From a virus, in the IMG/VR virus record IMGVR_UViG_3300020420_000061, positions 1-23,735 of that record: 23,735 bases of DNA; one strand, given 5' to 3'. Under the pieces are notes generated by a model. The model saw only the letters and a list, made by a program, of their open reading frames with translations. It ran no database searches and was not told the origin of the DNA. The position numbers were made by a program, and so were the translations under genes. Shown here in pieces: positions 1,422 to 23,692 of this stretch. Each line of letters starts with the position of its first letter. Position 1 is the first letter of the stretch.

Positions 1422-1550
1422 TAATATTGACGAATCTTTTTATAACGGTAAAAATTTAAGATCAATATTAGTTTATTAACGATATTAGTAGCTTTTTATT
1501 ATTTTGTTTAGTAAATTTTTATTTTTTAAAAACATAATATCCGTAATAAC

Positions 1551-6958: not shown

Positions 6959-7810
6959 ATGTCATCAATTAGAAAGAAACTTACTGTTAATGAAAACGAC
7001 AGTAAAAATACTAGAATGGACCTTGCTTCGGCAGGGGTGTTAGGTAACTGGCGACCTGATGAACTAGCTCATATGAGTCGGTTCGATAAAATCGCTAGTT
7101 TAGCCATAGATGAAGCTAAAGTTTTAGATAGACCGCTAGATACTTTAGAAGTTGGTTGTGGGGAATGTTGGGCGTTACGTTGTTTGTATAAAGCATACGT
7201 AGTTAAAAAATCTGATATTATCCGTTCGTATTATGGTTACGATATCGACCCTGCTTGTGAATTAGAAAATAAGTTTTGGTCTAATGCAGGTGGTAAATTA
7301 GAAGAATCTACTTGGTTTAAAAACTTTAACGGTGAAATACGAATACAAGACTTAACAGTAAACCCTGTGTTTGATTTACCTGATGAAAGTATAGATTTTT
7401 TCTGGTCTACCGAAGTTATTGAACATATGGGTAGAGAGTTTGTACCCGCATGGTTGGATGATGTGGCTAGGGTTATGCGACCCAATGCACTAGGTTATGT
7501 TTCTACACCTAACCATGACGGGTCAAACGATAAGTTACCTGAAGATCACGTTTATGAGTGGGGCTTCGAAGAACTAAAAGAAGAACTAGAACGTAACTTT
7601 AATATTGAAGCGGTCACGGGTACGTTCATACAAATGCCTAATTTAAAGAAAGCTAGGTTTGATGGTACACGTGATAAATACTTAGAGTGGACAGATCAAC
7701 AAATGATTATGTTAACTGAACGTTTCGGCAAACAGTTCTTACGTATGGCAGCAGCAACTATGTATCCTGAACACGCTAATAACTGTGCTTGGAGACTAAC
7801 TAAGAAGTAA
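6959..7810 (+). CDS. Class I SAM-dependent methyltransferase
   Basis: 283 aa. Motif I LEVGCGEC lies at 63-70, the acidic ribose-binding end of strand 2 in GYDID (93-97), and a TEVIEHM motif at 151-157, the arrangement of Methyltransf_11/23-type enzymes. There is no DPPY/NPPY motif of adenine or N4-cytosine DNA methylases and no PC motif of C5 methylases, so the substrate need not be a standard DNA base. It heads operon 2, and its stop overlaps the start of the hypermodification-family gene by TAATG. Methylation of a modified nucleotide, or of a small-molecule precursor, is a reasonable inference. SD AGAAAGGAG. Confidence 0.85.
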   Translation: MSSIRKKLTVNENDSKNTRMDLASAGVLGNWRPDELAHMSRFDKIASLAIDEAKVLDRPLDTLEVGCGECWALRCLYKAYVVKKSDIIRSYYGYDIDPACELENKFWSNAGGKLEESTWFKNFNGEIRIQDLTVNPVFDLPDESIDFFWSTEVIEHMGREFVPAWLDDVARVMRPNALGYVSTPNHDGSNDKLPEDHVYEWGFEELKEELERNFNIEAVTGTFIQMPNLKKARFDGTRDKYLEWTDQQMIMLTERFGKQFLRMAAATMYPEHANNCAWRLTKK

Positions 7811-8727
7811 TGTTTATTGCAGAAGAACTTGATAGATATTTTTACTGGCAAGAAGAACGGGAAAGTATTCGTAAAAAGAAAGAAAATGATTTACCGCCCC
7901 CTTGGACTAATGATCCTATCTTACAAGAGTTTAAATTCTGTCAAGTTTATCGAGAAGAAGATAGGACTACTCGGTGGCTTAGAAAACATATCAGAGAACC
8001 GTTACGAGACGACCCTAGAGTTTTTATGGCAGTAATAATTTTTAGGTGGTTTAATTTAATAGAAACAGGAAGGACATTAGTAGAAAATGATCTATTGTTT
8101 AATTGGGATAGAAAGAAAGCTATTGAACTTATTAGAAAACAACCTAAATGGATTACTGGTTCTTATATTATTAAAACCCCTAATCGTATGGATAAAGTTA
8201 CAGGAGTAGCTGAATGTATAAGTCATATGTGGAATGACAGAAATTATTTAGTGACTAAATTAGAAAATGAAAAAGCATTAGACAATTCTTCTTTAGAGTT
8301 TTGTTGGGAAACGCTACGAGATTATCCTTACATGGGTCCATTTATGGCGTACGAGGTTGTTACTGATTTAAGACATACTTATTTATTAGATGAAGCTAAT
8401 GATATTATGACTTGGGCTAACGCAGGTCCAGGAGCCATGCGAGGTCTTAATCGTTTGACGGGCAGACCATTAGAATATTGTTTACGTAGTCATGATTGGA
8501 ACAATGAGATGCAAGAGTTATTAAAAATAGCTTTCGAAAGAAACTCTTGGGTTACTAAAAGAAACTCTGTTAAATATGAATTAAGGGAGATAGAAGGGGG
8601 TTTATGTGAGTTTGATAAATACTCACGTATTCTTAAAAAAGAAGGTAGAACACGCTCTATCTATAAACAAAACGACTTGCCTATAGTTGAAGATGTAGTA
8701 GCAGGTAAAAGCAAATACGAACTATGA
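7810..8727 (+). CDS. Thymidine-hypermodification helical protein (aGPT-Pplase / 5-hmdU DNA kinase helical-domain family)
   Basis: 305 aa, mostly helical. Recognisable blocks are PWTNDPILQEF (31-41) with YREEDRTTRWL (47-57), the HhH-glycosylase-like core YPYMGPFMAYEVVTDLRHT (172-190), ANAGPGAMRGLNRL (203-216) and the late GGLCEFDKYSR (263-273). These match my recollection of the family described as alpha-glutamyl/putrescinyl-thymine pyrophosphorylase-like, which includes amino acid:DNA transferases and the helical half of 5-hydroxymethyl-dU DNA kinases. No Walker A is present, so the kinase half is absent. In phages such as ViI and SP10, relatives act on phosphorylated 5-hydroxymethyl-dU in DNA. 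The next gene is a TS-like protein joined by ATGA, which strengthens the reading. The exact reaction is unknown. Confidence 0.75.
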   Translation: MFIAEELDRYFYWQEERESIRKKKENDLPPPWTNDPILQEFKFCQVYREEDRTTRWLRKHIREPLRDDPRVFMAVIIFRWFNLIETGRTLVENDLLFNWDRKKAIELIRKQPKWITGSYIIKTPNRMDKVTGVAECISHMWNDRNYLVTKLENEKALDNSSLEFCWETLRDYPYMGPFMAYEVVTDLRHTYLLDEANDIMTWANAGPGAMRGLNRLTGRPLEYCLRSHDWNNEMQELLKIAFERNSWVTKRNSVKYELREIEGGLCEFDKYSRILKKEGRTRSIYKQNDLPIVEDVVAGKSKYEL

Positions 8728-9800
8728 AAGTAATAACCGCACGAAATATAAACGACGCTTTTAGATTAGGTGTTGATTTCTTTTTAGAAAAAACTAATTA
8801 TCGAGAACAAGAAAGTAGAAACGGGTTGACTTTAGAAGCAGTAGAACCAGTAGCTACGGTCTATCAAAAACCTACAGAACGTGTATTGTTTTGTGAAAAA
8901 CGCGACGCTAATCCTTTTTTCCATTTTATAGAAGGACTATGGATGATACATGGACGTAACGATTTGAGACCTTTAACTTTTTTCGTAGAGTCTATGCGAG
9001 ATTTTTCTGATGATAATGAGACTCTATGGGGGGCTTACGGTTGGCGTTGGCGAGAGTATTTTGATAAAGATCAATTAGAAATTATTATCGCTATGTTACG
9101 ACGTGACCCCGACGATAGACGAGCAGTGTTACAGATGTGGGACGTTAAAGAAGATTTAGATAGAGAAGGTAAAGACGTACCTTGTAATACGAATATTTAT
9201 TTTAAAGTTAGAGATAAAAAACTAAATATGACTGTTTGTAACCGTTCGAACGATATGCTTTGGGGGGCTTATGGTGCTAATGCAGTACATATGTCTATGC
9301 TACAAGAATATATGGCTTCGAGAATAGAAGTAGCTGTTGGTGAATATACTCAAATTAGTGATAGTTTTCATGTTTATCAAAACGACGTTTGGGAACGTTG
9401 TAAAGAGTTAGGTGTTATTGATATTTATAGTTGGCGTTCTACTAAAAACGATTATGAATACATTAAACAAAAAGACCTTGTACCTTTAATAACTCATTCT
9501 AAAACTTTTCAGTGGGAGTTAAATTTATTTTTCGAGACATTTGATGATGTTATAACGACAGGTAAAACGTTTTCAACTAAAGAATATATTGGTTCAGGAC
9601 CAATAAAAACTTTTCAAAACCCGTCTATACGAGATATAGCAATACCTATGGTTAATGCTTATCTTTTTCATAAGCGTAGACGTTACGAGGATTCTTATGC
9701 TTGGATTAATAAAATTAAAGCATACGATTGGATGAAAGCGTGTTTCGAATGGGTCCGCAAACGAGACACTGCTTTTACATTAAAAATTGCGGACAACTAA
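8724..9800 (+). CDS. Thymidylate synthase superfamily protein (dTMP synthase or dUMP hydroxymethylase)
   Basis: 358 aa, longer than ThyA (264). Conserved features: the FFHFIEGLWMIHGRND block (E70, W73) matching the ThyA HELLWFL region, LWGAYGWRWREY like GPVYGKQWR, the phosphate-binding arginine pair in DRRAV (132-133), nucleophile C154 in VPCNTN, RSND (174-177), and DSFHVYQND carrying the His/Tyr that contact the sugar. Asn186, two positions beyond the GAYG turn, lies where ThyA uses Asn to select dUMP; dCMP hydroxymethylases have Asp there. The substrate is therefore predicted to be dUMP. The usual ThyA C-terminus (PVAI) is not present. Next to the hypermodification-family gene, 5-hydroxymethyl-dUMP synthesis is as likely as plain dTMP synthesis. 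Confidence 0.85.
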   Translation: MKVITARNINDAFRLGVDFFLEKTNYREQESRNGLTLEAVEPVATVYQKPTERVLFCEKRDANPFFHFIEGLWMIHGRNDLRPLTFFVESMRDFSDDNETLWGAYGWRWREYFDKDQLEIIIAMLRRDPDDRRAVLQMWDVKEDLDREGKDVPCNTNIYFKVRDKKLNMTVCNRSNDMLWGAYGANAVHMSMLQEYMASRIEVAVGEYTQISDSFHVYQNDVWERCKELGVIDIYSWRSTKNDYEYIKQKDLVPLITHSKTFQWELNLFFETFDDVITTGKTFSTKEYIGSGPIKTFQNPSIRDIAIPMVNAYLFHKRRRYEDSYAWINKIKAYDWMKACFEWVRKRDTAFTLKIADN

Positions 9801-13533: not shown

Positions 13534-13882
13534 TCTACCGTTTATACATCTACAACGAATCGAAACAGGTATGACAGGAGCAGGAGTGCCTGATGTTAAC
13601 GGTTGTGCGAAAGGTAAAGAGTTTTGGGTAGAACTAAAAGAAATACATTCAGGTAATGCTCTTACTCTACGCCCTATGCAAGTAGCTTGGTTAGGTAAAC
13701 GAGCAGCTCATGGTGGTCAAGTGTTTGTTTTAGCTAGAAAAAATGCTGAGCTGAAGCTCTACCATATAGACAGTTTAACAGGAATAAAAGAATTGATGAA
13801 GGGTGGTTATAACTCTCCCGCGTTGCTTACGCTAAACGTTCCTTACGATTGGGAGGCTCTTGGTAGTGCTTTACTTTCTTAA
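13493..13882 (+). CDS. VRR-NUC domain nuclease
   Basis: 129 aa, a stand-alone VRR-NUC (PD-(D/E)xK superfamily). Catalytic motifs: G31-V-P-D34 and E47-L-K49, then Q63 in LRPMQVAW, followed by HGGQVFVLAR. This is the usual phage size. VRR-NUC enzymes cut branched or structured DNA, and phage ones are thought to act in replication or recombination. I keep the start at 13493 because the N-terminal block EKNLWLLMRTNLP...QRIETG matches the family layout, although it makes a 41-nt overlap with the zinc-ribbon gene. An ATG at 13523 is the alternative. Confidence 0.87.
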   Translation: MAKEKNLWLLMRTNLPFIHLQRIETGMTGAGVPDVNGCAKGKEFWVELKEIHSGNALTLRPMQVAWLGKRAAHGGQVFVLARKNAELKLYHIDSLTGIKELMKGGYNSPALLTLNVPYDWEALGSALLS

Positions 13883-13954: not shown

Positions 13955-14989
13955 ATGGCACATCAAGTAGAAACGATGGCGTGGGCTAATCAAGTACCTT
14001 GGCACGGATTAGGTGTCGAAGTAAGTGATGATCTTACACCATTACAAATGCAGGAGGCAGCAGGTCTAGACTGGACAGTTAGTAAACGTCCTAGTTATAC
14101 GCTTGACGCACCTGAGTGGGGCGACGATGTTGGTTTAATCCAAGCGGAAAATACTTTCCACATCGTTCGCGATTCTGATAACCGTGTTCTTAGTCATTGC
14201 GGTAGGGATTATATCCCTGTCCAAAATAAGGACATATTTGAGTTTTTTAAACGCTTTACTGAAGCGGGTCACATGAAAATGGAAACCGCAGGTAGTTTAA
14301 AAGACGGTGGAGAAATTTGGGGCTTAGCCAAAATTTCTGAGGACTTCGAACTTGCGGGTGAAGACCATATTAAAGGGTATCTTTTAATACACCAACCGCA
14401 CGTAGTAGGTAAGTCGATGACTATTAAACTTACCCCAATAAGAGTTGTTTGTAATAACACTCTTACTTTTGCTCTAGGCGAGAAAGGTACGGCGTCATTC
14501 CGTATGCCACACGTTAAAGAGTTTGGGGTAGACGTCATGGAAGCTGCTGAAGAGGCGTTAGGTCTATCAGCACAGAAGATGTCTAAGTTTAAAGAAGCGG
14601 CGGAGTTCCTTTCTAACAAGAAAGCTAAACACCCGCAGTTTTTAGACTTCGTAGGTGAGTTATATCAACCTAATACTATGTTGACGTATCGTCATGAAGC
14701 TAAACTAAAAGCTGATGGTAAGTTAATTGGTGAACAAGCACCACTTATCGAGCAGTTCAATAAGTACCCTAAGTTGGTAGTAGACGCTCTTGAGCAACAG
14801 CCAGGAGCCAATCTAGCTTCTTCTAAAGGTACTTGGTGGGGTGCATTAAATGCAGTTACCTACGTAGAGGATCACTTACGTGAGTCTCACGGAAAAGGTA
14901 ATACCTTACACAGCTCTTGGTTCGGCGTGTCGGCTAACCGCAAAGCTAAAGCATTAGATTTAGCTATTAAATATGCGGAGACTGCCTAA
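13955..14989 (+). CDS. DUF932 phage/plasmid-like protein
   Basis: 344 aa. The N-terminus MAHQVETMAWANQVPWHGLG is the hallmark opening of DUF932 / phage-plasmid-like (TIGR03299-type) proteins, and the length is typical. The conserved HIVRDSDNRVLSHCGRDYIPVQN block is at about 68-90, and TPIRVVCNNTL at about 157-167 is the other family signature. These proteins are widespread on phages and plasmids; their biochemical role is not established. SD CGGAGG 7 nt before the ATG. Its stop overlaps the next start by TAATG. It leads operon 4. Confidence 0.93.
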   Translation: MAHQVETMAWANQVPWHGLGVEVSDDLTPLQMQEAAGLDWTVSKRPSYTLDAPEWGDDVGLIQAENTFHIVRDSDNRVLSHCGRDYIPVQNKDIFEFFKRFTEAGHMKMETAGSLKDGGEIWGLAKISEDFELAGEDHIKGYLLIHQPHVVGKSMTIKLTPIRVVCNNTLTFALGEKGTASFRMPHVKEFGVDVMEAAEEALGLSAQKMSKFKEAAEFLSNKKAKHPQFLDFVGELYQPNTMLTYRHEAKLKADGKLIGEQAPLIEQFNKYPKLVVDALEQQPGANLASSKGTWWGALNAVTYVEDHLRESHGKGNTLHSSWFGVSANRKAKALDLAIKYAETA

Positions 14990-15735: not shown

Positions 15736-15746
15736 TCTTATACTGC

Positions 15747-15775
15747 TTTACTTTCGTTTTACTCTAAGGCAGAAT
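15747..15775 (+). promoter_or_regulatory. Sigma70-like promoter P5
   Basis: ACTGC-TTTACT with TTTACT at 15747-15752, a 17-nt spacer, and a weak -10 CAGAAT at 15770-15775. The -35 and leader are typical of the family. The poor -10 suggests dependence on an activator, or a shifted start. Confidence 0.55.
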
Positions 15776-15831: not shown

Positions 15832-16221
15832 ATGCAAACGCAAACTTCAACTTCATCTTCTGTAAAAAGAAGACCCGCTGTCAAAAAGACAGCAAAAAGC
15901 AAGGGGATAACTATCCCTGAACCAAAACAAGCCAGTAAAGGCTCAGCACGTACTGTATATAAGTACAGTGGTAAAAAAATCGAGTGTAAAACTGCACAGA
16001 TGATCGCTTTGATCAAAACTGTACAAGAAGCTAAGAAGCCAGTAGACCCTAAAAAGCCTGACTTCGCTAAAAATGAGCTTGACTCGTCTAGCTTTACAGC
16101 ACAGGATTTGGTTAAACTTGCTGTTAAACAAGGTAATTTGATTACTGGTCAAGAACCTATGAGAATCTTTAGGTTTTATACTAAAAGATTGAAAGACGAA
16201 GGTTACTTTTCGAAGGTATAA
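15832..16221 (+). CDS. Basic protein with disordered N-terminus (129 aa)
   Basis: The first 45 residues are Ser/Thr/Lys/Arg-rich (SSSVKRRPAVKKTAKSKG), probably disordered and nucleic-acid binding. Residues 50-129 form a compact helical domain ending RIFRFYTKRLKDEGYF, which looks like a small winged-helix or HTH-type C-terminus. Strong SD AGAAAGGAGAAAGAT, its own promoter, a leader hairpin and a strong hairpin just after the stop: this single-gene unit looks built for high expression. A DNA-binding or nucleoid-type role is plausible. No family recognised. Confidence 0.83.
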   Translation: MQTQTSTSSSVKRRPAVKKTAKSKGITIPEPKQASKGSARTVYKYSGKKIECKTAQMIALIKTVQEAKKPVDPKKPDFAKNELDSSSFTAQDLVKLAVKQGNLITGQEPMRIFRFYTKRLKDEGYFSKV

Positions 16222-16227
16222 TTACCC

Positions 16228-16290
16228 GTGAGTGTGCGAACACTGTAAATAGTCCCGATATTACACTATTGTTCGTACACTCACCTTTTT
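16228..16290 (+). terminator. Long hairpin, likely intrinsic terminator
   Basis: A 15-bp stem (16228-16242 with 16270-16284, one G-T wobble) carries a smaller inner stem TGTAA/TTACA and is followed by CTTTTT. It begins 7 nt after the stop of the basic-protein gene. The next gene's SD AGGAGAAAC comes directly after the T-run, so the structure may also attenuate expression of 16302-16738, for which I find no separate promoter. Confidence 0.75.
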
Positions 16291-16301
16291 AGGAGAAACA
16301 G

Positions 16302-16535
16302 ATGAAATGTAAGTTTTGTAAAGAAGAATATACTGATCATGAAGGAGAGGACAATGGGATTTGTGATAGTTGTTTCTTTAATAATCCTTGGATGCACGAC
16401 CAATTATGGGTGTGGGAAGAAACCGCAATTAAATATGGTTGGACTAAAGAAACATCACCAATAGAAGTTATAGACCCAAATGATGAAATGTGGGATGGTA
16501 GCGAATATGAAGAATGGGTTAGGGAGGAAGCATGA
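16302..16535 (+). CDS. Small zinc-finger protein (77 aa)
   Basis: One four-Cys zinc site at the N-terminus: C3-x2-C6 ... C21-x2-C24. The rest is acidic and Trp-rich (WMHDQLWVWEE, MWDGSEYEEWVREEA). SD AGGAGAAAC. It lies just downstream of the long hairpin and overlaps the next gene by ATGA after GGGAGGAAGC. A protein-protein or nucleic-acid adaptor is plausible; no family recognised. Confidence 0.78.
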   Translation: MKCKFCKEEYTDHEGEDNGICDSCFFNNPWMHDQLWVWEETAIKYGWTKETSPIEVIDPNDEMWDGSEYEEWVREEA

Positions 16536-16738
16536 AAATACAATTTATTAAAGATAACGGCGAAGTTATTGAAACTACGGTCACGGAACTAAGTAGAGCA
16601 ATCTATAGTTTCGGTTCAGCATTTACTAGCGAAGAGTTTAGTAATGCACTCTACGATTTTATAGAGGAAAAACAACAAGAAGATGAGAATTCTTTACACG
16701 CTAGATTGCGTAATGTACAACACGATGATACCAGATAG
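16532..16738 (+). CDS. Hypothetical protein (68 aa)
   Basis: Coupled to the zinc-finger gene by ATGA. Starts with a beta-hairpin-like MKIQFIKDNGEVIETTV, followed by a helical acidic part (SEEFSNALYDFIEEKQQEDE). No motif recognised. Promoter P6 follows after a 38-nt gap. Confidence 0.72.
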   Translation: MKIQFIKDNGEVIETTVTELSRAIYSFGSAFTSEEFSNALYDFIEEKQQEDENSLHARLRNVQHDDTR

Positions 16739-16776
16739 TTTTTATGTCTTGGTCTTTACGTGGTGTCTAATAGTGC

Positions 16777-16805
16777 TTTACTTTGCTAATATTGGCGTTT
16801 AATAT
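16777..16805 (+). promoter_or_regulatory. Sigma70-like promoter P6
   Basis: AGTGC-TTTACT with TTTACT at 16777-16782, a 17-nt spacer, and TAATAT at 16800-16805. Leader CAAGAAAGGAGAAAGTT ends at the ATG at 16839. The 16 nt from AGTGC to CTAAT are identical to promoter P7. Confidence 0.78.
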
Positions 16806-16838
16806 AAATACTATAACTAAACAAGAAAGGAGAAAGTT

Positions 16839-16976
16839 ATGAATAAAAAAGACGATAAACCATTGTCACCAGAGGAGCGTAGACGCATTAGTAGTCAATA
16901 CACTATTGCCCCTGCGTATAATAAAGGAGCGTATCAGGTTATCCCTAGAGACGACATCAAACATATAGGGAGGTAG
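16839..16976 (+). CDS. Small hypothetical protein (45 aa)
   Basis: A 46-codon frame with an excellent SD (AGAAAGGAGAAAGTT-ATG) placed correctly behind P6. The product begins MNKKDDKPLSPEERRRISSQ and ends DDIKHIGR, basic in the middle and hydrophilic. A GGGAGG SD for the next gene overlaps its last codons. The RBS and spacing make it a real gene despite its size. Function unknown. Confidence 0.75.
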   Translation: MNKKDDKPLSPEERRRISSQYTIAPAYNKGAYQVIPRDDIKHIGR

Positions 16977-16978
16977 TT

Positions 16979-17380
16979 ATGCCTAATAATTGTTTTAACA
17001 AAGTATCGATTTATGGTAAAGAAGCGAGTAAAATCGCTTCGGAGCTAAAATCAGAAGAAACAGTTTTTGACTTTAGAAAGGTGCTTCCTGAACCTGACTA
17101 CGAAAAAATCGAAGTAAAATCAACCTTCCCGAAAGAAGATGAAAAAGACGATTTTCGTATGCCTAAATGGTGGGATTGGCGTGTACAAAACTGGGGTACT
17201 AAATGGAATAGTTACGATGACGAAGTTGAGATAGTGGATGATGAGACTGTGGAATATACTTTCAGCACAGCTTGGAGTCCGCCTGAACCTGTTATCGAAA
17301 AACTTAGGGAACAATATCCTGACGTTAGTATTACAGCGTTTTTTGACGAGCCAGGAATGGAAATTGCGGGGTATTACTAA
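16979..17380 (+). CDS. YubB / DUF1281-like ferredoxin-like-fold protein
   Basis: 133 aa. MPNNCFNKVSIYG at the N-terminus, FDFRKVLPEP (30-39), WRVQNWGTKWNSYD (67-80), FSTAWSPPEPVIEKL (95-109) and a final DEPGMEIAGYY match the plasmid/phage family of YubB (DUF1281, api92-like ferredoxin-fold domain). The biochemical function is not established. SD GGGAGG 6 nt upstream, within the preceding gene's end. Its stop overlaps the next start by TAATG. Confidence 0.88.
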   Translation: MPNNCFNKVSIYGKEASKIASELKSEETVFDFRKVLPEPDYEKIEVKSTFPKEDEKDDFRMPKWWDWRVQNWGTKWNSYDDEVEIVDDETVEYTFSTAWSPPEPVIEKLREQYPDVSITAFFDEPGMEIAGYY

Positions 17381-17784
17381 TGTTGATATTTAAACATTTA
17401 GATGACATAAACGCTGTTTATGGTCTTTTAGCTAAAGTGGCTGATGAAGTAAATGATTACTATTGGCACAACGATTGTGAAGTTGACCCTGAAAGAGCAG
17501 GTGCATTAGAGGAGCTACGAGCTCATTTAATAAAATGGGGTTATATTGATAAAAGCTATGATTTAGCTCGACTTACTTATAGTTTTCATGAGTTATATCC
17601 TGCTTCGCCAGTTACTCAAGAAAACAACAGACAATATCATGCAGTTTTAAATAAACTTGATGATGATGTTAGAAGGCATCTTTTATGGGATATGAGAAAT
17701 ATCGAAAAAGATACAGGCGAAAAGCTAGATAAATCTGTTAGGTTTAACATGGCTTTAGAAAAACTTTTACAAGAGGAGGAATAG
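17380..17784 (+). CDS. Hypothetical protein (134 aa)
   Basis: Starts in the TAATG overlap with the YubB-like gene. Predominantly helical and acidic. Two His/Asp-containing helices (about 22-40 and 85-105) are visible, but no metal-site signature is clear. No family recognised. Followed 2 nt later by the next gene, whose SD GAGGAGG lies in its last codons. Confidence 0.78.
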   Translation: MLIFKHLDDINAVYGLLAKVADEVNDYYWHNDCEVDPERAGALEELRAHLIKWGYIDKSYDLARLTYSFHELYPASPVTQENNRQYHAVLNKLDDDVRRHLLWDMRNIEKDTGEKLDKSVRFNMALEKLLQEEE

Positions 17785-17786
17785 TT

Positions 17787-18218
17787 ATGGGTTTAGATTG
17801 TTTTATAGCTCACGGTAATGACCGTGATAAACCGTTTACGCATGAAGACGACGACCGTATCAAAGATATTAACTTATGTGGTGGTATGTTAAGTGGTCAT
17901 GGTGCCGACGGTTCGTTTAGAGGTAAAGTTTATGAACCATTAGTTGGTGAACTTATGGACGAACCAGGACTTTGGCATCTTGATGGCGAAGACGCTCATA
18001 TTACTAGCCAAGAACTAAAAGAACAAGCCGACGCGTTAGGTCAGTTGATTACGGCTAAGTTAGAAGACGCAGACGAACTTGATGAAGTGGTTGAAGACGA
18101 TACTATTATTTATCAAAGTAGCATCGGTTACGAATATACTTTTAAAGAAGTTTGTGATTTAGAGACTTTGTTTCGCGTAGCTTCAGAGCGTGGTGCAGTA
18201 ATGACAGTGTGGTGGTAA
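17787..18218 (+). CDS. Conserved-looking hypothetical protein (143 aa)
   Basis: MGLDCFIAHG opens the protein, followed by LCGGMLSGHGADGSFRGKVY (about 30-49), a Gly-rich block that looks like a functional loop, and a C-terminal RGAVMTVWW. I have a faint memory of similar GLDC/GGMxSG proteins in environmental phages, without a role. Acidic (many D/E between 60 and 110). SD GAGGAGG 8 nt upstream. Function unknown. Confidence 0.8.
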   Translation: MGLDCFIAHGNDRDKPFTHEDDDRIKDINLCGGMLSGHGADGSFRGKVYEPLVGELMDEPGLWHLDGEDAHITSQELKEQADALGQLITAKLEDADELDEVVEDDTIIYQSSIGYEYTFKEVCDLETLFRVASERGAVMTVWW

Positions 18219-18219
18219 T

Positions 18220-18525
18220 ATGAAAAAGATTAAATATGCAACAATTCCAATACTAGAAAAATTAGTAGAACAAGCGGAACGTACGGATAAAAATCAATAT
18301 CCTGATATGTATAAAATTAACGAAACGATTAGTGAGTTAGAACTAGATCATGAAACGGTTAAGTTTCCGATTGTAATGACTCTTGATCATAACGATATCG
18401 AAGTACGAGCCGTATTTAATATTCCAAATGTAGACGAACCTACAGTTATGGATAGGTTTTTATTAGATATGGAGTATCAAGATTATAACGAACTACCTGC
18501 TGTAGAGGTTAGCGATGAATTCTAA
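18220..18525 (+). CDS. Hypothetical protein (101 aa)
   Basis: Begins 1 nt after the previous stop. Basic start (MKKIKYATIPILEKLVEQAE), acidic remainder, alternating strands in the second half (IVMTLDHNDIEVRAVFNI). No motif recognised. Overlaps the next gene by 11 nt. Confidence 0.75.
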   Translation: MKKIKYATIPILEKLVEQAERTDKNQYPDMYKINETISELELDHETVKFPIVMTLDHNDIEVRAVFNIPNVDEPTVMDRFLLDMEYQDYNELPAVEVSDEF

Positions 18526-18718
18526 GAAAGCTAGATTATTACGTAAAGTTTTGAAAAAAGGTGGGGTCGATTGGCGACAAGCTAAACACGTACAACGTGT
18601 AAATAAAGATCAACAAGGTAACGAGCAACGTGATCCTACGATATTTTTAGACCCTAAATGTGGTCGTGCAATTTACCGTATGTCAAAACGTATGGCTAAA
18701 GTCAGGGGCTTGGTATAG
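18515..18718 (+). CDS. Small basic hypothetical protein (67 aa)
   Basis: Starts inside the end of the previous gene, with GAGG 6 nt before the ATG. Strongly basic (SKKARLLRKVLKKGG, then RMSKRMAKVRGLV), unlike its acidic neighbours, so nucleic-acid binding is plausible. No family recognised. Last gene before promoter P7. Confidence 0.75.
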   Translation: MNSKKARLLRKVLKKGGVDWRQAKHVQRVNKDQQGNEQRDPTIFLDPKCGRAIYRMSKRMAKVRGLV

Positions 18719-18721
18719 TGC

Positions 18722-18750
18722 TTTACTTTGCTAATACTCGTAACTATAAT
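18722..18750 (+). promoter_or_regulatory. Sigma70-like promoter P7
   Basis: AGTGC-TTTACT with TTTACT at 18722-18727, a 17-nt spacer, and a perfect TATAAT at 18745-18750. Leader AACAAGAAAGGAGAAAGTT ends at the ATG at 18785. This is one of the two best matches to the family consensus. Confidence 0.82.
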
Positions 18751-18784
18751 TTAATAATAACTAATAACAAGAAAGGAGAAAGTT

Positions 18785-19006
18785 ATGGAAGAAAAAATGA
18801 TACTTGAGTTACTTGACAAACTTACGGAGACTTTGCGTAAAGTTGTCGAAACTCAAAAGTCACAAGAAGAGGTCAACAAACAACTTGTTGACGAAATACT
18901 AACCTTGAAAAACCGCATACTTATGCTAGAAATGGAAAAGCAGACGGTTGACCGTGTAAAGACACTACTAAGTAAAGAGGAGGTTGATGATGTTGACTAC
19001 AAGTGA
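18785..19006 (+). CDS. Small coiled-coil protein (73 aa)
   Basis: Almost entirely one predicted helix with heptad spacing of Leu/Ile/Met from residues 5 to 62 (for example LLDKLTETLRKVVETQ and EILTLKNRILMLEMEK). Probably dimeric. No catalytic motif. Leads operon 7 with a strong SD. It overlaps the next gene by 17 nt. Function unknown. Confidence 0.8.
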   Translation: MEEKMILELLDKLTETLRKVVETQKSQEEVNKQLVDEILTLKNRILMLEMEKQTVDRVKTLLSKEEVDDVDYK

Positions 19007-19271
19007 TATCAAAAACCAATCGTTGAAGTATGTTACCGAGCATTTACAATACGATAACTTTACTGATCAACAGATAGTAGATGCTCACAACTGGGTGGTC
19101 GAGGTATTACTCGACTTTGAAAAAGTTTATGGACCTTCAGATAAACTCTGTAAGAGTGACGTACTAAGGTTTCTAGAACAGTATTTAGACAGTAATTATT
19201 CGCACGTGGCAGAGGGTCCAGCAGAAGATTACAGTCCTGAATACGTAAAACAACATACGCTAGGGAGGTAG
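18990..19271 (+). CDS. Hypothetical acidic protein (93 aa)
   Basis: TTG-ATG-ATG offers three in-phase starts (18984, 18987, 18990). AGAGGAGG ends at 18983, so the ATG at 18990 has the best spacing (6 nt) and I choose it. The product is helical and acidic with aromatic residues, no Cys motif, ending YSPEYVKQHTLGR. No family recognised. Its TAG is followed after 2 nt by the next ATG. Confidence 0.75.
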   Translation: MLTTSDIKNQSLKYVTEHLQYDNFTDQQIVDAHNWVVEVLLDFEKVYGPSDKLCKSDVLRFLEQYLDSNYSHVAEGPAEDYSPEYVKQHTLGR

Positions 19272-19273
19272 TG

Positions 19274-19498
19274 ATGACAGATAGAGAATTACCAGCAGGT
19301 TTAAAAATAATGGACGCTGAGCCGAAAGAAGTTACAAATCCTTTTTCAGGCGAGAGCGTAGTATTACAACCTGACGCTATTGCAGTCTATGATTTTATCA
19401 AAGGTGCAGAAGTATTAGGTCACCATGACGATTTACGTGAAGGTATCGATTGGTTTGTGCAACACGAACCTGAAGCGTATATGACGTTATTAGATTAA
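19274..19498 (+). CDS. Hypothetical acidic protein (74 aa)
   Basis: I choose the ATG at 19274 over the GTG at 19271 because GGGAGG ends at 19268, giving a 5-nt gap. The product starts MTDRELPAGLKIMDAEP and is acidic throughout, with a central strand-rich part (SVVLQPDAIAVYDFI). No motif recognised. Confidence 0.75.
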   Translation: MTDRELPAGLKIMDAEPKEVTNPFSGESVVLQPDAIAVYDFIKGAEVLGHHDDLREGIDWFVQHEPEAYMTLLD

Positions 19499-19651
19499 TT
19501 ATGAAGGTTAGCGGAAAAGAGGATAGCTATTAAAGACCAAATCCTGTTTGATGAGGAACTGATGTTTGTAGCTTACATTAGAGGATATATACTCTGTAAA
19601 CTAGACTAAGAGAAATCATATGAACAACGCCTTTATAACTAGGAGCAAATT
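19499..19651. other. Gap with only very short or broken frames
   Basis: 153 bp between two operon 7 genes. One frame reads 33 sense codons after a TGA (19502-19504) and ends at a TAG-free TAA near 19609. Its only ATG (in GAGGAACTGATG) would give a 15-aa peptide behind a good SD. A second ATG at 19501 gives 10 codons. This may be a decayed small gene or a leader peptide. No hairpin or promoter of the family was found. Confidence 0.35.
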
Positions 19652-19852
19652 ATGGATATAAAAAAATTAAATCAAGAATACAGTTACTCATGGTCGGATG
19701 ACCGTAGCCCGTACGAAATCTTTTTTGATAATATGTACAAAGCGTATCTACTCGAAAAAGAAGCGTATAGTGAGCAAGATGTCTTGAGTAAAACAGATTA
19801 TTTCGAAGCTAACCAAGACTTTTTATTACAAAAGTTTAAGGAGGAAGCATGA
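19652..19852 (+). CDS. Hypothetical protein (66 aa)
   Basis: SD AGGAG 6 nt before the ATG. Acidic and aromatic (MDIKKLNQEYSYSWSDDRSP), helical C-terminal half. First of four genes chained by ATGA overlaps; its last codons supply the AGGAGGAAGC SD of the next gene. Function unknown. Confidence 0.75.
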   Translation: MDIKKLNQEYSYSWSDDRSPYEIFFDNMYKAYLLEKEAYSEQDVLSKTDYFEANQDFLLQKFKEEA

Positions 19853-20046
19853 GTAAATATAAATATTTGGGTTTATGGGATATACAGTTTTATAAAGAAG
19901 ATGGTGAAGGCAATGTATTAGAAAATAAAGATGGCAGTACCAAATTGTTTTCAGTAGTTGGAAACTCCTTTGATAATATTGATTTATCGGACATATCTGA
20001 ATATGTAGAAGATGAAGATTTAGAAGAAATAGATGAGGAAGCATGA
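19849..20046 (+). CDS. Hypothetical very acidic protein (65 aa)
   Basis: Starts in ATGA. The N-terminal half is strand-like (KYLGLWDIQFYKEDGEG), and the C-terminal 20 residues are almost all Asp/Glu (EYVEDEDLEEIDEEA). Such acidic tails occur in phage DNA-mimic and host-interaction proteins, but nothing more specific can be said. Ends GAGGAAGCATGA, coupling it to the next gene. Confidence 0.75.
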   Translation: MSKYKYLGLWDIQFYKEDGEGNVLENKDGSTKLFSVVGNSFDNIDLSDISEYVEDEDLEEIDEEA

Positions 20047-20234
20047 AACTATATCAAATTGATTACATAAATTCTTATGGCGAAACAGAATTTGTTGCAC
20101 TTACAGATAACCCTGAAAAGTGGTTGAAAGAAAATAATGAACAAAGGATTCGCGATGGAAACGAGCCAGAAGATTTAGATGACTTTGAAATCTACGAGCA
20201 AGGTATATGGATTTATAACAAGGAGAACGCATGA
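20043..20234 (+). CDS. Hypothetical acidic protein (63 aa)
   Basis: MKLYQIDYINSYGETEFVAL begins with a strand pair, then a helix (PEKWLKENNEQRI) and an acidic end. Its layout (short beta-hairpin, helix, acidic end) resembles the following gene, so the two may be distant paralogues. Coupled on both sides by ATGA. Function unknown. Confidence 0.75.
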   Translation: MKLYQIDYINSYGETEFVALTDNPEKWLKENNEQRIRDGNEPEDLDDFEIYEQGIWIYNKENA

Positions 20235-20395
20235 AAACATATAGAGTGACAGCAGTACAACCAGGAATATACGAAATTATAGTCGAAGCAAACTCAAAAA
20301 AAGACGCACTAAAAATAGCTAACGCGAATAATGTAGGGTGGAACTTTTGTGAGTATTTAGATTGGGATGATTATGAAGTAGAGGAGGAAGGTTGA
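20231..20395 (+). CDS. Small hypothetical protein (54 aa), DpnD/PcfM-like shape
   Basis: A 55-codon frame starting in ATGA after AAGGAGAACGC. The product begins MKTYRVTAVQPGIYEIIVEA, followed by NSKKDALKIANANN and an acidic tail (DWDDYEVEEEG). A strand, a strand ending in EA, then a helix starting with SxxxAL is the pattern of small DpnD/PcfM-like proteins; this is a weak resemblance by eye. Last gene of operon 7. Confidence 0.75.
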   Translation: MKTYRVTAVQPGIYEIIVEANSKKDALKIANANNVGWNFCEYLDWDDYEVEEEG

Positions 20396-20484
20396 AGTCA
20401 GCAGGTTTTTTGTATTTTCATTTTTCCTGTCATACCAACTCGGAGTGCGGTTGTCTGACGAAAAGCACTCCACTCTATTACTGC
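20396..20484. other. Intergenic gap with hairpin before P8
   Basis: Contains GGAGTGC (20442-20448) and GCACTCC (20465-20471), a perfect 7-bp inverted repeat with a 16-nt loop, preceded by T-rich tracts (GGTTTTTTG). The stem is not followed by a T-run, so it is a poor intrinsic terminator on the + strand. Confidence 0.4.
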
Positions 20485-20513
20485 TTTACTTTGGCGGTAT
20501 TCGTAAGTAAAAT
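20485..20513 (+). promoter_or_regulatory. Sigma70-like promoter P8
   Basis: ACTGC-TTTACT with TTTACT at 20485-20490, a 17-nt spacer, and TAAAAT at 20508-20513. TTTACTT (20485-20491) and AAGTAAA (20505-20511) form an inverted repeat, echoing P2. Leader TAAGAAAGGAGAAAGTT ends at the ATG at 20549. Confidence 0.77.
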
Positions 20514-20548
20514 GTACTTAGTAACTATTAATAAGAAAGGAGAAAGTT

Positions 20549-20752
20549 ATGACTAAGAAAAAAGTATACGTTGGAAAATGTATCGAGGTGGGCGTACCTA
20601 GAGTATATGGTGCGACTAAAGAAAAATGTAGAGAAGCTATGGAGCGTTACACTACTAATCATGTTCGAAATAAAGCATTACAGATGTTCGAATATGACGG
20701 CGACGATCCATACGTTGCTCTAGCTGATCCTATGGGAGGTAAACGAGTATGA
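20549..20752 (+). CDS. Hypothetical protein (67 aa)
   Basis: Basic start MTKKKVYVGKCIEVGVPRVY, then a helix (KEKCREAMERYTTNHVRNKA) and a Gly/Asp-rich end. No motif recognised. First gene of operon 8, coupled to the next by ATGA. Confidence 0.77.
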   Translation: MTKKKVYVGKCIEVGVPRVYGATKEKCREAMERYTTNHVRNKALQMFEYDGDDPYVALADPMGGKRV

Positions 20753-21090
20753 CCAATAGAATCTATGAGTTTTACCTAATCGACCCTACGGGAGACGAAA
20801 CTAGGAAAACTAATTACAGTGTTAGTAGCCCGAAAGGTAGGCATAAAATCTTTAGAGGCACGGTAGAAGACTTCCAAAAAGTAGAAGAACTTTATGGTGA
20901 GCTCTGGGCTAAAGTGATCGATAACCAACTCGGACTACTCGGCGACGAACATGCAGGAGTATTAACGGACGACCCGATATTACAAAACTGGGAAGGTGCC
21001 GAGATTATTGCCGTAGACCATCTTAATATCGAGTATTGGTATTTAGGTAACGGTGATTTAGAAGCAGTACCTAATCACGAGACTGCGTAG
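20749..21090 (+). CDS. Hypothetical acidic protein (113 aa)
   Basis: Coupled to the previous gene by ATGA. Begins MTNRIYEFYLIDPTGDETRK, with mixed strands and helices, acidic, and a Trp-containing end (IEYWYLGNGDLEAVPNH). No family recognised. Followed by two hairpins, the second a likely terminator. Confidence 0.77.
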   Translation: MTNRIYEFYLIDPTGDETRKTNYSVSSPKGRHKIFRGTVEDFQKVEELYGELWAKVIDNQLGLLGDEHAGVLTDDPILQNWEGAEIIAVDHLNIEYWYLGNGDLEAVPNHETA

Positions 21091-21109
21091 TAAATAACGC
21101 ACTACAAGG

Positions 21110-21128
21110 GTCGACTCTTAGAGTTGAC
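21110..21128 (+). other. Short hairpin downstream of operon 8
   Basis: GTCGACTC-TTA-GAGTTGAC forms an 8-bp stem with one G-T pair and a 3-nt loop. No T-run follows. It precedes the likely terminator at 21138 and could pause polymerase or protect the RNA end. Confidence 0.45.
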
Positions 21129-21137
21129 TATCAAAGT

Positions 21138-21179
21138 CCTACCGAGCTGAGTTTTAGTTACACTCGGTAGGCATTTTTA
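21138..21179 (+). terminator. Likely intrinsic terminator after operon 8
   Basis: CCTACCGAG (21138-21146) pairs perfectly with CTCGGTAGG (21163-21171) around a 16-nt loop and is followed by CATTTTTA. Confidence 0.7.
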
Positions 21180-21207
21180 GAGCGTCGCTTGGCGTTTCGC
21201 GTACTGC

Positions 21208-21236
21208 TTTAAAATGGGTTTGCTCCCCTTTATAAT
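21208..21236 (+). promoter_or_regulatory. Sigma70-like promoter P9
   Basis: ACTGC-TTTAAA with TTTAAA at 21208-21213, a 17-nt spacer, and a perfect TATAAT at 21231-21236. The -35 departs from TTTACT, but the upstream ACTGC and the spacing hold. The leader has a small GGGA/TCCC hairpin and ends in AAGAAAGAGAGAAAGAT before the ATG at 21287. Confidence 0.75.
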
Positions 21237-21286
21237 ATATATAAGCGTTAGGGAATTATCCCGAAGCGTAAGAAAGAGAGAAAGAT

Positions 21287-21511
21287 ATGAAAAATAAATG
21301 GATAAAACTACCTAATGGTGGAGAAATATATAAAGGAGCCGACGCTTCTGACTTCCCCGAAGCACCGTTAGGAAAAGAGCTGTGTGAGTATGAGAACGAT
21401 ACGTGGTTTATTGTGACTCATATGAGCGAAGATGATAGCTATACTTATATTACTCACCGATTCCCTGGAGGCGGCGGTGATACAGGTATGGTAATTAGAT
21501 TGGAGAAATAA
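21287..21511 (+). CDS. Hypothetical protein (74 aa)
   Basis: Strand-rich: MKNKWIKLPNGGEIYKG, DTWFIVTHMSEDDSYTYITH, then a Gly loop PGGGGDTG and MVIRLEK. Looks like a small beta protein. The SD is GAAAGAGAG, weaker than in its siblings. Followed 1 nt later by the next gene. No family recognised. Confidence 0.75.
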   Translation: MKNKWIKLPNGGEIYKGADASDFPEAPLGKELCEYENDTWFIVTHMSEDDSYTYITHRFPGGGGDTGMVIRLEK

Positions 21512-21512
21512 T

Positions 21513-21917
21513 ATGATAGATAAAATTACTAAGAAAGATATGGTCCATCCTGACGTGTTCGACTCAGAGAATGATCCCGAAAAACTAAGAGTAGAAAGTG
21601 TGATTAATAGCATTACGAGTCATTTGACGGACACGGATGAGATAGATTATCACTTTAGCGAGTGTGACGGACATGATGACGAGCATTATGAGAAGCTGAT
21701 GTCTGATTTACCGAAAGACTCGAAATGGTTTACTATCTACGATAGTTGTTATTTTCCTGTCTTCGACGGTGATTCGTATAGTATTATCGAAGTGGCTCTT
21801 GTACCTAATAATGAGTTCTATTACTTAGCTTTGTCTATGGGTGGTTCGTTAGGTAGTAGTGCTCTTACTGAGTATTTCAAGATTCCTATAACTGGTAAAT
21901 GGGCTTTTTCGGCATAA
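21513..21917 (+). CDS. Hypothetical acidic protein (134 aa)
   Basis: Strongly acidic with His and Asp clusters (FSECDGHDDEHYEKL, about 49-63) that could bind a metal, followed by strands WFTIYDSCYFPVFD and a Gly/Ser segment LSMGGSLGSSALTEYF. No known motif. SD GGAGAAATA. It lies between two short genes of operon 9. Confidence 0.77.
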   Translation: MIDKITKKDMVHPDVFDSENDPEKLRVESVINSITSHLTDTDEIDYHFSECDGHDDEHYEKLMSDLPKDSKWFTIYDSCYFPVFDGDSYSIIEVALVPNNEFYYLALSMGGSLGSSALTEYFKIPITGKWAFSA

Positions 21918-21937
21918 ACTTAAGAAAGGAGGAAACA

Positions 21938-22105
21938 ATGAATAATCAAGAGAACCGCAAAAATGTAGCACTACCCGAAGATTTAGCCGAGGATATAGAC
22001 TATATTGCAGAGATGTTGTCCCAGCAGACAGGAGCTAAGATAGGCAGAACGAATGCCATCAGAGCAGCAGCGAAAGCATGGTTTGACGCTAACAATAACG
22101 GATAG
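21938..22105 (+). CDS. Ribbon-helix-helix (CopG/Arc-like) DNA-binding protein (55 aa)
   Basis: I start at the ATG at 21938, 6 nt after an excellent GAAAGGAGG, rather than at an upstream ATG at 21899 that lies inside the previous gene. The 55-aa product has a beta strand KNVALPEDL (8-16), helix DIDYIAEMLSQQTG and helix RTNAIRAAAKAWFDAN, the RHH layout. Such proteins bind operators as dimers. This is a candidate repressor or activator of the phage promoters. It is followed by a strong terminator. Confidence 0.83.
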   Translation: MNNQENRKNVALPEDLAEDIDYIAEMLSQQTGAKIGRTNAIRAAAKAWFDANNNG

Positions 22106-22121
22106 TAAAGACTTCTCTCAG

Positions 22122-22154
22122 CCCCCGATTGTTTACGACAGTCGGGGGTTTTTT
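22122..22154 (+). terminator. Strong intrinsic terminator after operon 9
   Basis: CCCCCGATTGT pairs with ACAGTCGGGGG (11 bp, one G-T pair) around the loop TTACG, followed by TTTTTT. Confidence 0.92.
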
Positions 22155-22180
22155 ATTACTCGTACGCTCTAAAACTGCTT

Positions 22181-22209
22181 TTAATCGCGTGGTAAATCTT
22201 AGTTATAAT
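22181..22209 (+). promoter_or_regulatory. Sigma70-like promoter P10
   Basis: ACTGCTTTTAATC precedes a perfect TATAAT at 22204-22209. With a 17-nt spacer the -35 is TTAATC (22181-22186), so the ACTGC element sits 2 nt further upstream than in the other promoters. Leader CCTAGAAAGGAGAAATAAA ends at the ATG at 22260. Confidence 0.68.
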
Positions 22210-22259
22210 ATAGGGGTAAAAAATTATTTTTACGATTTAACCTAGAAAGGAGAAATAAA

Positions 22260-22862
22260 ATGAAAGTTATAGAAACTGTAATAAAAGAAAATATGCTTAG
22301 GATTAATAAACTGTTAGAAGCAGCAGAAAATCCTGAGTTCATACAGATAAATAAACATAACGTTTGGTTAGCTGGAAGCAAAATAGAAATCAAAGATGAT
22401 TGGTATAATGCGACTAATAGTTATATTAACCATAATATAGTAGTAGAGCCGAGCTATTATTTTGATCTATACCCGTTATTTGATGTCGATAGTTGGGATA
22501 GAACTGTTACGTCGAAACCAGTAAATGACTATGAATATCTCTACACCGACTGGCAAGAAGGAGAAACTATAGGTAGCGGAATGTTAACTTTAACTTCGAA
22601 ACAGTTTAAAAGGTTTGAAGGTGGGAAATTAAACAAAATGTTAATACAGTTTATGGACGATGTGTGGAAAGAAGATCACGATAAGTTTCTAGCCAAAGAT
22701 GATGATGTGATACATATTATTATTTCAGTACACGACCAAGATACTACGGCTAGTATTAGGAGTTTTGTATACGATAGTCCTGAAGGAGATCATGTAGATC
22801 AAGCGATGCGACAGTTAATAGAAAGAACTGATCTAGCTGATTTATTGAATTTTAGATTTTAA
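22260..22862 (+). CDS. Hypothetical protein (200 aa)
   Basis: The largest gene of the accessory region, alone between promoter P10 and a strong terminator. Helical start MKVIETVIKENMLRINKLLE, then strand-rich with many Tyr and Trp (YYFDLYPLFDVDSWDRTV), acidic overall. No Cys motifs, no membrane segment and no recognised domain. Its single-gene unit with a good SD suggests high expression during early infection. Function unknown. Confidence 0.82.
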   Translation: MKVIETVIKENMLRINKLLEAAENPEFIQINKHNVWLAGSKIEIKDDWYNATNSYINHNIVVEPSYYFDLYPLFDVDSWDRTVTSKPVNDYEYLYTDWQEGETIGSGMLTLTSKQFKRFEGGKLNKMLIQFMDDVWKEDHDKFLAKDDDVIHIIISVHDQDTTASIRSFVYDSPEGDHVDQAMRQLIERTDLADLLNFRF

Positions 22863-22880
22863 TAGATAGTCTACTAAATG

Positions 22881-22914
22881 CCCCCGTGCTACGTTCCGTG
22901 GTGCGGGGGTTTTT
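22881..22914 (+). terminator. Strong intrinsic terminator after operon 10
   Basis: CCCCCGTGCTAC pairs with GTGGTGCGGGGG (12 bp with three G-T pairs) around the loop GTTCC, followed by TTTTT. It closes the early region. Confidence 0.9.
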
Positions 22915-23081
22915 ATTTATCGTATTAGTGTTTTTAAAAATAAAATTTTTTATTCAAAGAAATGTTAAAAACTACTAATATCTCTAATATAGTAATAGAA
23001 TCGTTCTGTAATGGTCTATATCATTGGATTCTTGTCTCTATCAAAAGTAATAGATTTTCTATTAGTTATTAGAAACATATG

Positions 23082-23124
23082 GTAAGATTCACTAGAGGGC
23101 ACGAGAAAACTATTTTATTTTGAT
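23082..23124 (+). promoter_or_regulatory. Candidate second-class promoter element upstream of terminase
   Basis: The + strand partner of the element at 1372-1414: 31 of 43 positions match without gaps, with TAGAGGGCA identical. Here the block TTCACTAGAGGGCACGAGA loosely recalls a T7-type promoter (TCACTAtAGGG). GGG lies 60 nt before the terminase ATG. It differs from the ten TTTACT promoters, so a late-class or different-polymerase site is plausible. Confidence 0.6.
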
Positions 23125-23158: not shown

Positions 23159-23692
23159 ATGAAACAGCTGACTTACACGCAATTAATCCCTACCGAAGAC
23201 GGTAAAGCATATGTTGACGACAAAGGTAAGATATGGCAACCACTCAACTCGAAACAAAAGAAGTTTTGTAAAGAGTATTTAAAAGGTCAAACAGCTACTG
23301 AAGCTGCTATCAAAGCAGGGTATACAAAAGACAGGAAGGGGGCAAAGACACAGGGCAGTGTGTTACTCAATCATAACCCAGTTGTACGAAACTACTTGAT
23401 TGATCTAGAAATCGCCGCCTCAGAGAGGGACGCAGTTTCTCTAGAGAGTCATTTGTCCACGCTCCACGACCTGCGAGAAGAAGCCAAGGACCAAGGACAG
23501 ATATCTGCAGCCATAACAGCCGAAGTGCATCGAGGCAAAGCTGGTGGACTCTACATCGATAGACGAGAGATATTGACTGCAAAGATTGATTTGATGTCCA
23601 AGGACGACATCCTCACTCGACTCGAAGAATTAATAAAGAAACGCTCTACTGAATCCAATGTCATTGAGGGTGACTTCAGGCAAACTGACTGA
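23159..23692 (+). CDS. terS: Terminase small subunit (Terminase_2 family-like)
   Basis: 177 aa. After a 28-residue lead, LNSKQKKFCKEYLKGQTATE and AAIKAGYTKDRKGAKTQGSVLL (49-70) with NHNPVVRNYL give the N-terminal HTH of Terminase_2-type small subunits. The centre is a helical oligomerisation region (LSTLHDLREEAKDQGQ) and the C-terminus is charged. The small subunit recognises the packaging site and hands DNA to the large subunit, expected just to the right. Codons here are visibly richer in G and C than in the early genes, as might be expected for a separate, possibly late module. The SD is short (AGGA). Confidence 0.87.
   Translation: MKQLTYTQLIPTEDGKAYVDDKGKIWQPLNSKQKKFCKEYLKGQTATEAAIKAGYTKDRKGAKTQGSVLLNHNPVVRNYLIDLEIAASERDAVSLESHLSTLHDLREEAKDQGQISAAITAEVHRGKAGGLYIDRREILTAKIDLMSKDDILTRLEELIKKRSTESNVIEGDFRQTD

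Follow-up and report, generated by a model that had tools for sequence, protein, structure and literature searches.

Within the virus record analyzed here (the window, i.e., the whole stretch of 23,735 nucleotides, a 23.7-kb fragment of an unclassified marine phage), 22 small genes, g01–g22, occupy positions 15832–22862 between a DUF932 gene and terS. The exchange architecture of this region is very likely that of a cassette array located at one genome position in a clade of marine phages, and taken as a whole the region is probably best explained as such an array in which control modules are retained. Here, we compared 25 distinct genomes including the window, each spanning DUF932 to terS, and observed fixed flanks enclosing hypervariable content. 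DUF932 and terS lie 4.9–10.5 kb apart, gene calling gave 587 genes in 175 families (95 of them seen once), and gene order changes (open reading frames, ORFs, were called with a simple script of our own, and the counts are approximate).

Homology between these genomes breaks off at start codons. In blastn comparisons of all spans, the end of a homologous stretch fell in the interval from −25 to +15 nt around a start codon in 182 of the 376 deduplicated cases, where 47 were expected, and the beginning did so in 168 of 437 (57 expected); the expectation places points randomly in the region, and the effect of selection for intact genes is therefore not removed. Consistently, genes are cleanly absent from individual relatives, as is g02 from L003, L005 and L009, the pair g05 and g06 from L009, and g17 from L005. 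Moreover, near-identical promoters precede unrelated genes. The promoter and leader at 21178–21298 are 96–97% identical in L003 and L085 and are followed there by different genes. Among 90-nt upstream segments, 132 pairs that align over at least 60 nt with no less than 80% identity stand before genes of different families (79 genes from 38 families).

Lateral spread is evident for g22 and g20. The description of g22 (22260) as a single-gene unit was borne out, as it has its own promoter and terminators on both sides. Its synonymous divergence (dS) from copies in other phages is 0.37–0.42, while terS of the same phages differs from that of the window at a dS of 1.35–2.63; between L061 and L106, g22 differs at a dS of 0.14 and terS is saturated. 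Constraint on silent sites as a cause of these low values was ruled out by the copy in L124, which diverges at a dS of 1.1–2.0, so that the silent sites of g22 are free to change. For g20, dS is 0.35–0.72 toward phages with a core dS of 1.4–2.65, and by this test g20 and g22 are the most mobile of the gene set. In L085, the g22 slot retains terminator, promoter, leader and ribosome site at 97% identity, then carries a different gene of 226 amino acids (aa) in which no similarity to g22 was detected, and ends in an identical closing terminator.

In the mechanism we propose, genes would be gained, lost or replaced, singly or in short runs, almost exactly between successive ribosome-binding-site/start-codon points; alternatively, the unit of exchange could run from promoter to terminator. 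Conserved modules, comprising the terminator hairpin, the TGCTTTACTTT...TATAAT promoter and the AGAAAGGAGAAAG ribosome site, would stay in place and supply an incoming gene with ready-made expression. Short shared sequences might thereby serve as recombination sites, and many of the products may act on the host or on host defenses.

An alternative option, possible if on balance doubtful, is ordinary illegitimate recombination followed by selection, in which entry and exit would be random, survivors would be those events that spared neighboring genes, and promoters would be common by descent and function. In line with this, breakpoints lie at gene edges generally, at starts and stops equally, and gene boundaries inside operons are as mobile as those bearing promoters. 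However, junctions retain promoter, leader and ribosome site at 96–98% identity before unrelated genes, which is rarely expected from random joins, and the g22 swap preserves both ends of the unit. Three points count against the cassette array with retained modules as proposed here. Selection for intact genes alone would also yield visible breakpoints at gene edges, whether or not recombination takes place at the shared signals. Adjacency across promoter gaps is no less conserved than inside operons (p 0.13); promoters are therefore not supported as privileged breakpoints, and we do not claim them as recombination sites. In some relatives, the same region carries dUTPase, MazG and dCTP deaminase-like genes and is therefore not purely an anti-host stock.

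These last genes, together with the 5-hmdU DNA kinase domain encoded in the window, would also fit a region devoted largely to phage metabolism or replication, e.g., to nucleotide pools for a thymidine-hypermodified genome. This is unlikely, as the family searches linked none of g01–g22 to an enzyme of this kind and known enzymes make up few of the 138 members of the gene pool. The initial annotation, made from the sequence alone, had interpreted the region as a stock of host-takeover and anti-defense genes. The part of this claim that concerns real, selected, hypervariable and exchanged genes stands and fits an arms-race reservoir, whereas the nucleotide-metabolism genes of the relatives speak against it as a general description. 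An anti-defense role of genes in the region is plausible, above all for g07, and we see about an even chance that most products act on the host.

Gene content and control signals

The features of the region and its flanks are as follows (coordinates on the window, strand, description; SD, Shine-Dalgarno sequence; dN/dS, ratio of nonsynonymous to synonymous divergence; z, folding score).
13867..13877, +, left fixed flank, promoter core TGCTTTACTTT ahead of the DUF932 operon; exact motif
13955..14989, +, DUF932 protein, left fixed flank; Pfam 5e-42; with terS the anchor for spanning relatives
15744..15775, +, promoter TGCTTTACTTT with CAGAAT before g01
15832..16221, +, g01, basic, 129 aa; opens the variable part in 25/25 genomes; dN/dS 0.12–0.27
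16228..16284, +, strong hairpin directly 5' of the g02 SD, terminator- or attenuator-like; z −5.3; retained where g02 is absent
16302..16535, +, g02, acidic, 77 aa; no relative found; cleanly missing in L003, L005 and L009
16532..16738, +, g03, 68 aa; family in 23/25 genomes; dN/dS 0.05–0.48
16774..16805, +, promoter TGCTTTACTTT with TAATAT before g04
16839..16976, +, g04, 45 aa, phrog_4593-like C terminus; family in 19/25 genomes, position varies
16979..17380, +, g05, 133 aa, Api92-like/DUF1281_C; Pfam 7.8e-11, phrog_20518 1e-29
17380..17784, +, g06, 134 aa; g05 and g06 lost in L009, both edges of the gap at start codons
17787..18218, +, g07, GLDCFI/GGMLSG protein, 143 aa; family in 20/25 genomes, position varies
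18220..18525, +, g08, acidic, 101 aa; dN/dS 0.06–0.23
18515..18718, +, g09, basic, 67 aa
18719..18750, +, promoter TGCTTTACTTTGCTAATA with TATAAT before g10
18785..19006, +, g10, 73 aa, probably coiled coil
18987..19271, +, g11, 94 aa, ATG at 18987; dN/dS 0.08–0.12 in closest copies
19274..19498, +, g12, 74 aa, ATG at 19274; dN/dS 0.17–0.30, L005 excepted
19652..19852, +, g13, 66 aa; dN/dS 0.14–0.58
19849..20046, +, g14, 65 aa; no relative found
20043..20234, +, g15, 63 aa; distant relatives only
20231..20395, +, g16, 54 aa; dN/dS 0.31
20482..20513, +, promoter TGCTTTACTTT with TAAAAT before g17, downstream of a GGAGTGC/GCACTCC hairpin
20549..20752, +, g17, 67 aa; lost in L005, the gap running from its SD up to the following start codon
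20749..21090, +, g18, 113 aa; family tandemly duplicated in some relatives
21133..21177, +, terminator hairpin before the g19 promoter; z −4.1 (stretch 21091–21204)
21205..21286, +, promoter (TGCTTTAAA with TATAAT) and leader with palindrome TTAGGGAATTATCCCGAA before g19; 97–98% identity in L003 and L085, with different genes behind
21287..21511, +, g19, 74 aa; dN/dS 0.21–0.28
21513..21917, +, g20, acidic, 134 aa; mobile family by dS comparison
21938..22105, +, g21, candidate ribbon-helix-helix-like regulator, 55 aa
22120..22150, +, terminator hairpin before the g22 promoter; z −3.7
22176..22209, +, g22 promoter (TGCTTTTAA...TATAAT); 97% identity in L085, with another gene behind
22260..22862, +, g22, single-gene cassette, 200 aa; recent spread between divergent phages
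22880..22910, +, terminator at the end of the g22 unit; L085 has an identical one behind another gene
23159..23692, +, terS, right fixed flank; Terminase_2 1.5e-13

All 22 genes are tandem plus-strand ORFs encoding 45–143 aa, plus one of 200 aa. The initial annotation had described about 22 small, mostly acidic and unrecognized products, and this was confirmed: net charge is negative in 18 products, the basic ones being g01 (+17), g04 (+4), g09 (+14) and g17 (+4), and 19 have no convincing match in Pfam or PHROG. Assignment to known families, named there as the contrary outcome, did not arise for the window genes in these searches. The three exceptions are g05, the only window gene above a Pfam cut-off (42.2 bits versus 22.8 for DUF1281_C), g04 with a weak phrog_4593 match of its C terminus (2e-4), and g21. 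For 19 of the genes, dN/dS toward relatives is mostly 0.05–0.5, and these are therefore real proteins, mostly under purifying selection, and not chance ORFs; g12 gives 1.02 against the near-identical L005 copy, a comparison with very few changes. For g02 and g14 no relative was found, and those of g15 are distant. Screening of the 138 gene-pool members with PADLOC gave nothing convincing, in a search without a dedicated Acr/Aca library.

The claim that each short operon has its own promoter held in part. A sigma70-like element, TGCTTTACTTT, recurs at 15744, 16774, 18719 and 20482 and, in diverged form, at 21205 and 22176, but no comparable motif was found before g02–g03 (16302) or g13–g16 (19652). 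The motif contains a TTTACT −35 box, which at 18719 and 20482 is separated by 17 nt from the −10 box. The DUF932–terS regions contain 70 copies of the exact 11-mer, compared to 21 on the same strand outside them and two on the minus strands taken together, and 87% of its copies in the regions sit 45–120 nt upstream of a start. Allowing one mismatch, we counted 103 copies in the regions, 38 outside and 27 on all minus strands, compared to 10 in simulated sequence of equal total length; likewise, the 10-mer TGCTTTACTT is present in 56 of 237 upstream segments of the 25 genomes versus 0.0 in the simulation, which covered the one-mismatch and k-mer counts, not the exact 11-mer. Only this specific motif discriminated: a plain sigma70 scan found fewer sites in the region than in shuffled DNA (21 versus 29), and a loose two-box promoter scan gave no discrimination. 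The genes would be transcribed early by the host RNA polymerase, a timing read only from the host-like promoters.

A terminator hairpin is followed by a promoter at 21133–21236 and 22120–22209 and, in a weaker instance, at 20396–20513, while no hairpin was found upstream of the remaining promoters. At 20396–20548, non-coding DNA carrying the GGAGTGC/GCACTCC hairpin before the 20482 promoter is about 90–98% identical in close relatives; an Rfam search that included this stretch gave no match. The overlapping ORF 20392–20556, open in six genomes, is probably conserved non-coding DNA and was left out of the gene set. Between g12 and g13, a further non-coding stretch of 145 nt (19504–19647) is missing in L005, and its fold is barely better than that of shuffled DNA (z −1.1).

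g07 and its bacterial relatives

The best anti-defense candidate of the set is g07 (17787), because its relatives in bacteria, rare as they are, sit close to TIR and DUF4062-NACHT STAND genes. The AlphaFold2 model of g07 is confident (pLDDT 89.7, pTM 0.86). A fold search against the PDB gave nothing below E 1, and a tblastn search of 50,697 phage records gave no match; the best hit in a viral fold library (8e-3), an uncharacterized Fadolivirus protein, superposed poorly and was not used. A genome scan found relatives in four metagenome-assembled genomes (MAGs) of Chloroflexota or Actinomycetota (G001–G004), and further searches added G401 and G844, with one to two positive genomes per group of 299–400. 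The relationship is clear: the relative in L151 is 39% identical to g07 and shares the pattern MGLD...GSFRGK.Y...W.

TIR, NACHT or DUF4062 genes lie near the g07 relatives in five of these six genomes. G001 has two copies, located around its only two NACHT and only two DUF4062 genes. In G002, a DUF4062-NACHT protein is encoded at a distance of 3.7 kb, and the only TIR gene is about 9 kb away; in G003, 8.5 kb separate the relative from a DUF4062-NACHT gene, and 23 of the 24 WD40 matches of the genome fall in between. The G004 relative adjoins the only TIR gene, which encodes a TIR-WD40 protein, and the nearest of four copies in G401 lies at most 7 kb from the only NACHT and the only DUF4062 gene. 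DUF4062 has been reported as a TIR-like NADase of the antiphage system Swarozyc (PMC13174449, a 2026 preprint). The likeness to such systems consists in the DUF4062 genes near bacterial g07 relatives in four genomes; in contrast, family searches detected no DUF4062, TIR or NACHT domain among the 22 window proteins, and only the small g07 relative is shared.

Several points count against a link of g07 to these defenses. G844, found last and serving as an independent test of the prediction, lacks genes for all three domains (NACHT, TIR and DUF4062) in the vicinity. Anaerolineaceae with similar gene clusters contribute two of the five positive genomes, and the choice of domain classes followed inspection of the loci. 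The same applies to the rough chance product of 2e-11, which was computed after the loci were seen and for conflict genes that cluster. A serious possibility, if somewhat short of even, is instead that the g07 family is a general regulator or adaptor of bacterial beta-propeller/STAND signaling clusters, taken up by phages to serve some other end. Occurrence in bacteria is rare and patchy, every relative has beta-propeller (WD40) genes in its vicinity (detected by Pfam in five genomes and by eye in G844), and G844 has its WD40-like fragment with none of the three domains nearby. However, g07 is kept in 20 of the 25 phage genomes amid fast turnover, which argues for a phage function linked to infection.

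It is unlikely, though conceivable, that g07 itself acts on TIR/DUF4062-NACHT NADase defenses; if it did, it could represent a phage answer to a recently described class of immunity. We consider it quite improbable, in addition, that g07 founds a family blocking or mimicking a TIR or DUF4062-NACHT regulator amid a promoter-tagged counter-defense stock that could be mined via TGCTTTACTTT.

In three genomes, the bacterial g07 relatives come with a second small protein (MGLNY/MGLDY..., 209–218 aa; L164:7369–7998, L166:8020–8652, L168:5975–6631); the one member tested had no Pfam match. G844 carries the same partner gene, of 210 aa, and a WD40-like fragment near its g07 relative. L163 (G401, a MAG from the searched Actinomycetota group) has a local paralogue array of four g07-like genes in less than 6 kb.

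Further candidates: g20, g22 and the g21 operon

The structure prediction for g22 is of low confidence (pLDDT 40). A likeness seen by eye between g22 and its replacement gene in L085 covered 28 columns at a probability of 2.6% in a profile comparison, and common descent of the two is therefore not claimed. Slightly downstream of g20, relatives carry either a g22-like gene (L134, L143, L075, L104) or a gene of the L085 replacement family (L127, L133), as if two gene types competed for this slot. The His/Asp cluster of g20 (21513), highlighted in the initial annotation, is not conserved across the g20 family and was accordingly rejected as a metal site.

For g21, the start lies at 21938 (55 aa) and not at 21899. 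Five of 11 family members match RHH_5, with 2.9e-4 at best, and the window copy scores 13.1 bits against a cut-off of 20.5; a comparison with PDB sequences gave no match. The layout is aca-like, resembling acr-aca operons in which the gene of a small DNA-binding regulator stands with small variable genes. Nevertheless, it is very unlikely that g19-g20-g21 form an acr-aca-type operon of acidic inhibitors and a ribbon-helix-helix (RHH) autorepressor of the 21205 promoter: although the RHH-like gene adjoins differing small genes in about ten relatives and the palindrome TTAGGGAATTATCCCGAA is positioned between the −10 box and the start codon, L003 and L085 have this promoter and palindrome with no RHH gene in that operon, g20 is mostly found without an adjacent RHH gene, and RHH proteins also act as antitoxins or general repressors.

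Comparable systems and the source phage

By analogy, exchange in the window appears to work like the shuffling of promoter-stem-loop (PeSL) cassettes in T4-like phages (Arbiol 2010; Comeau 2014; as relayed in PMC4503421), in a phage that is not T4-like. As far as that account describes them, PeSL cassettes comprise host-like promoters and stem-loops between small unknown genes of shuffled content, and both elements occur here. The carrier differs in that its PolA and terS are nearest to HTVC023P-type phages and its long relatives measure 60–67 kb; single genes inside operons, moreover, also move here from ribosome site to ribosome site. The "ORFanage" of cyanophage S-PM2 (PMC4503421) is likewise a contiguous set of unmatched genes at one place that varies between relatives. 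It was, however, lost as a block, whereas homologs, lateral transfer and retained promoters are measurable here. In anti-defense gene sets of archaeal viruses (PMC11065993), a single conserved regulatory sequence likewise precedes numerous small variable genes and defines the set; some of the actions there have been tested experimentally, whereas those considered here are candidates.

The exchange architecture together with one concrete functional lead, g07, is a useful addition. What was a list of unknown phage genes becomes a defined exchange region whose control signals can be recognized, and candidates for host-acting proteins could be collected from metagenomes by promoter and slot instead of homology. 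Testable genes are singled out as well, namely 17787, whose relatives in bacteria have STAND and NADase-type neighbors, and 22260 and 21513, which spread between divergent marine phages.

The DNA polymerase (PolA) of the window is 52.5% identical to that of 023Pt_psg01, 48.7% to Phage DSL-LC04, 48.2% to Pelagibacter phage HTVC023P and 47.0% to HTVC027P, i.e., 47–53% across HTVC023P-type pelagiphages. Matches of terS were found in HTVC027P (35% identity over 74% of the query) and DSL-LC04, and terS relatives are encoded on 227 stretches in viral contigs, several of them on contigs of 60–67 kb. A near-identity DNA search of the window against phage records gave no match. The stretch 7810–9800 codes for a 5-hmdU DNA kinase helical domain (Pfam 1e-43) and, after it, a product resembling by eye a thymidylate synthase or dUMP hydroxymethylase. 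The kinase domain suggests hypermodified thymidine, and from this gene pair hypermodification of the phage is probable. Thymidylate-synthase-type hypermodification genes have been reported in some clades of HTVC023P-type pelagiphages (PMC9599517), which are among the named phages closest to the window by PolA. They differ in terS, with 35% identity over 74% of the length to HTVC027P, and g07 is unmatched in the phage records.

Upstream of terS, the stretch 23048–23105 holds the palindrome TAATAGATTTTCTATTA, the extended −10-like TATGGTAAGAT and CTAGAGGGCAYGAG; it is kept in about 23 of the 25 genomes despite the shuffling of everything upstream, and from its sequence looks like a regulated late promoter. 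Further non-coding DNA before terS (22923–22997, plus strand) is 79% identical over 75 nt to a segment before the leftward helicase gene (1466–1539, minus strand), and TAGAGGGCA recurs at both sites.

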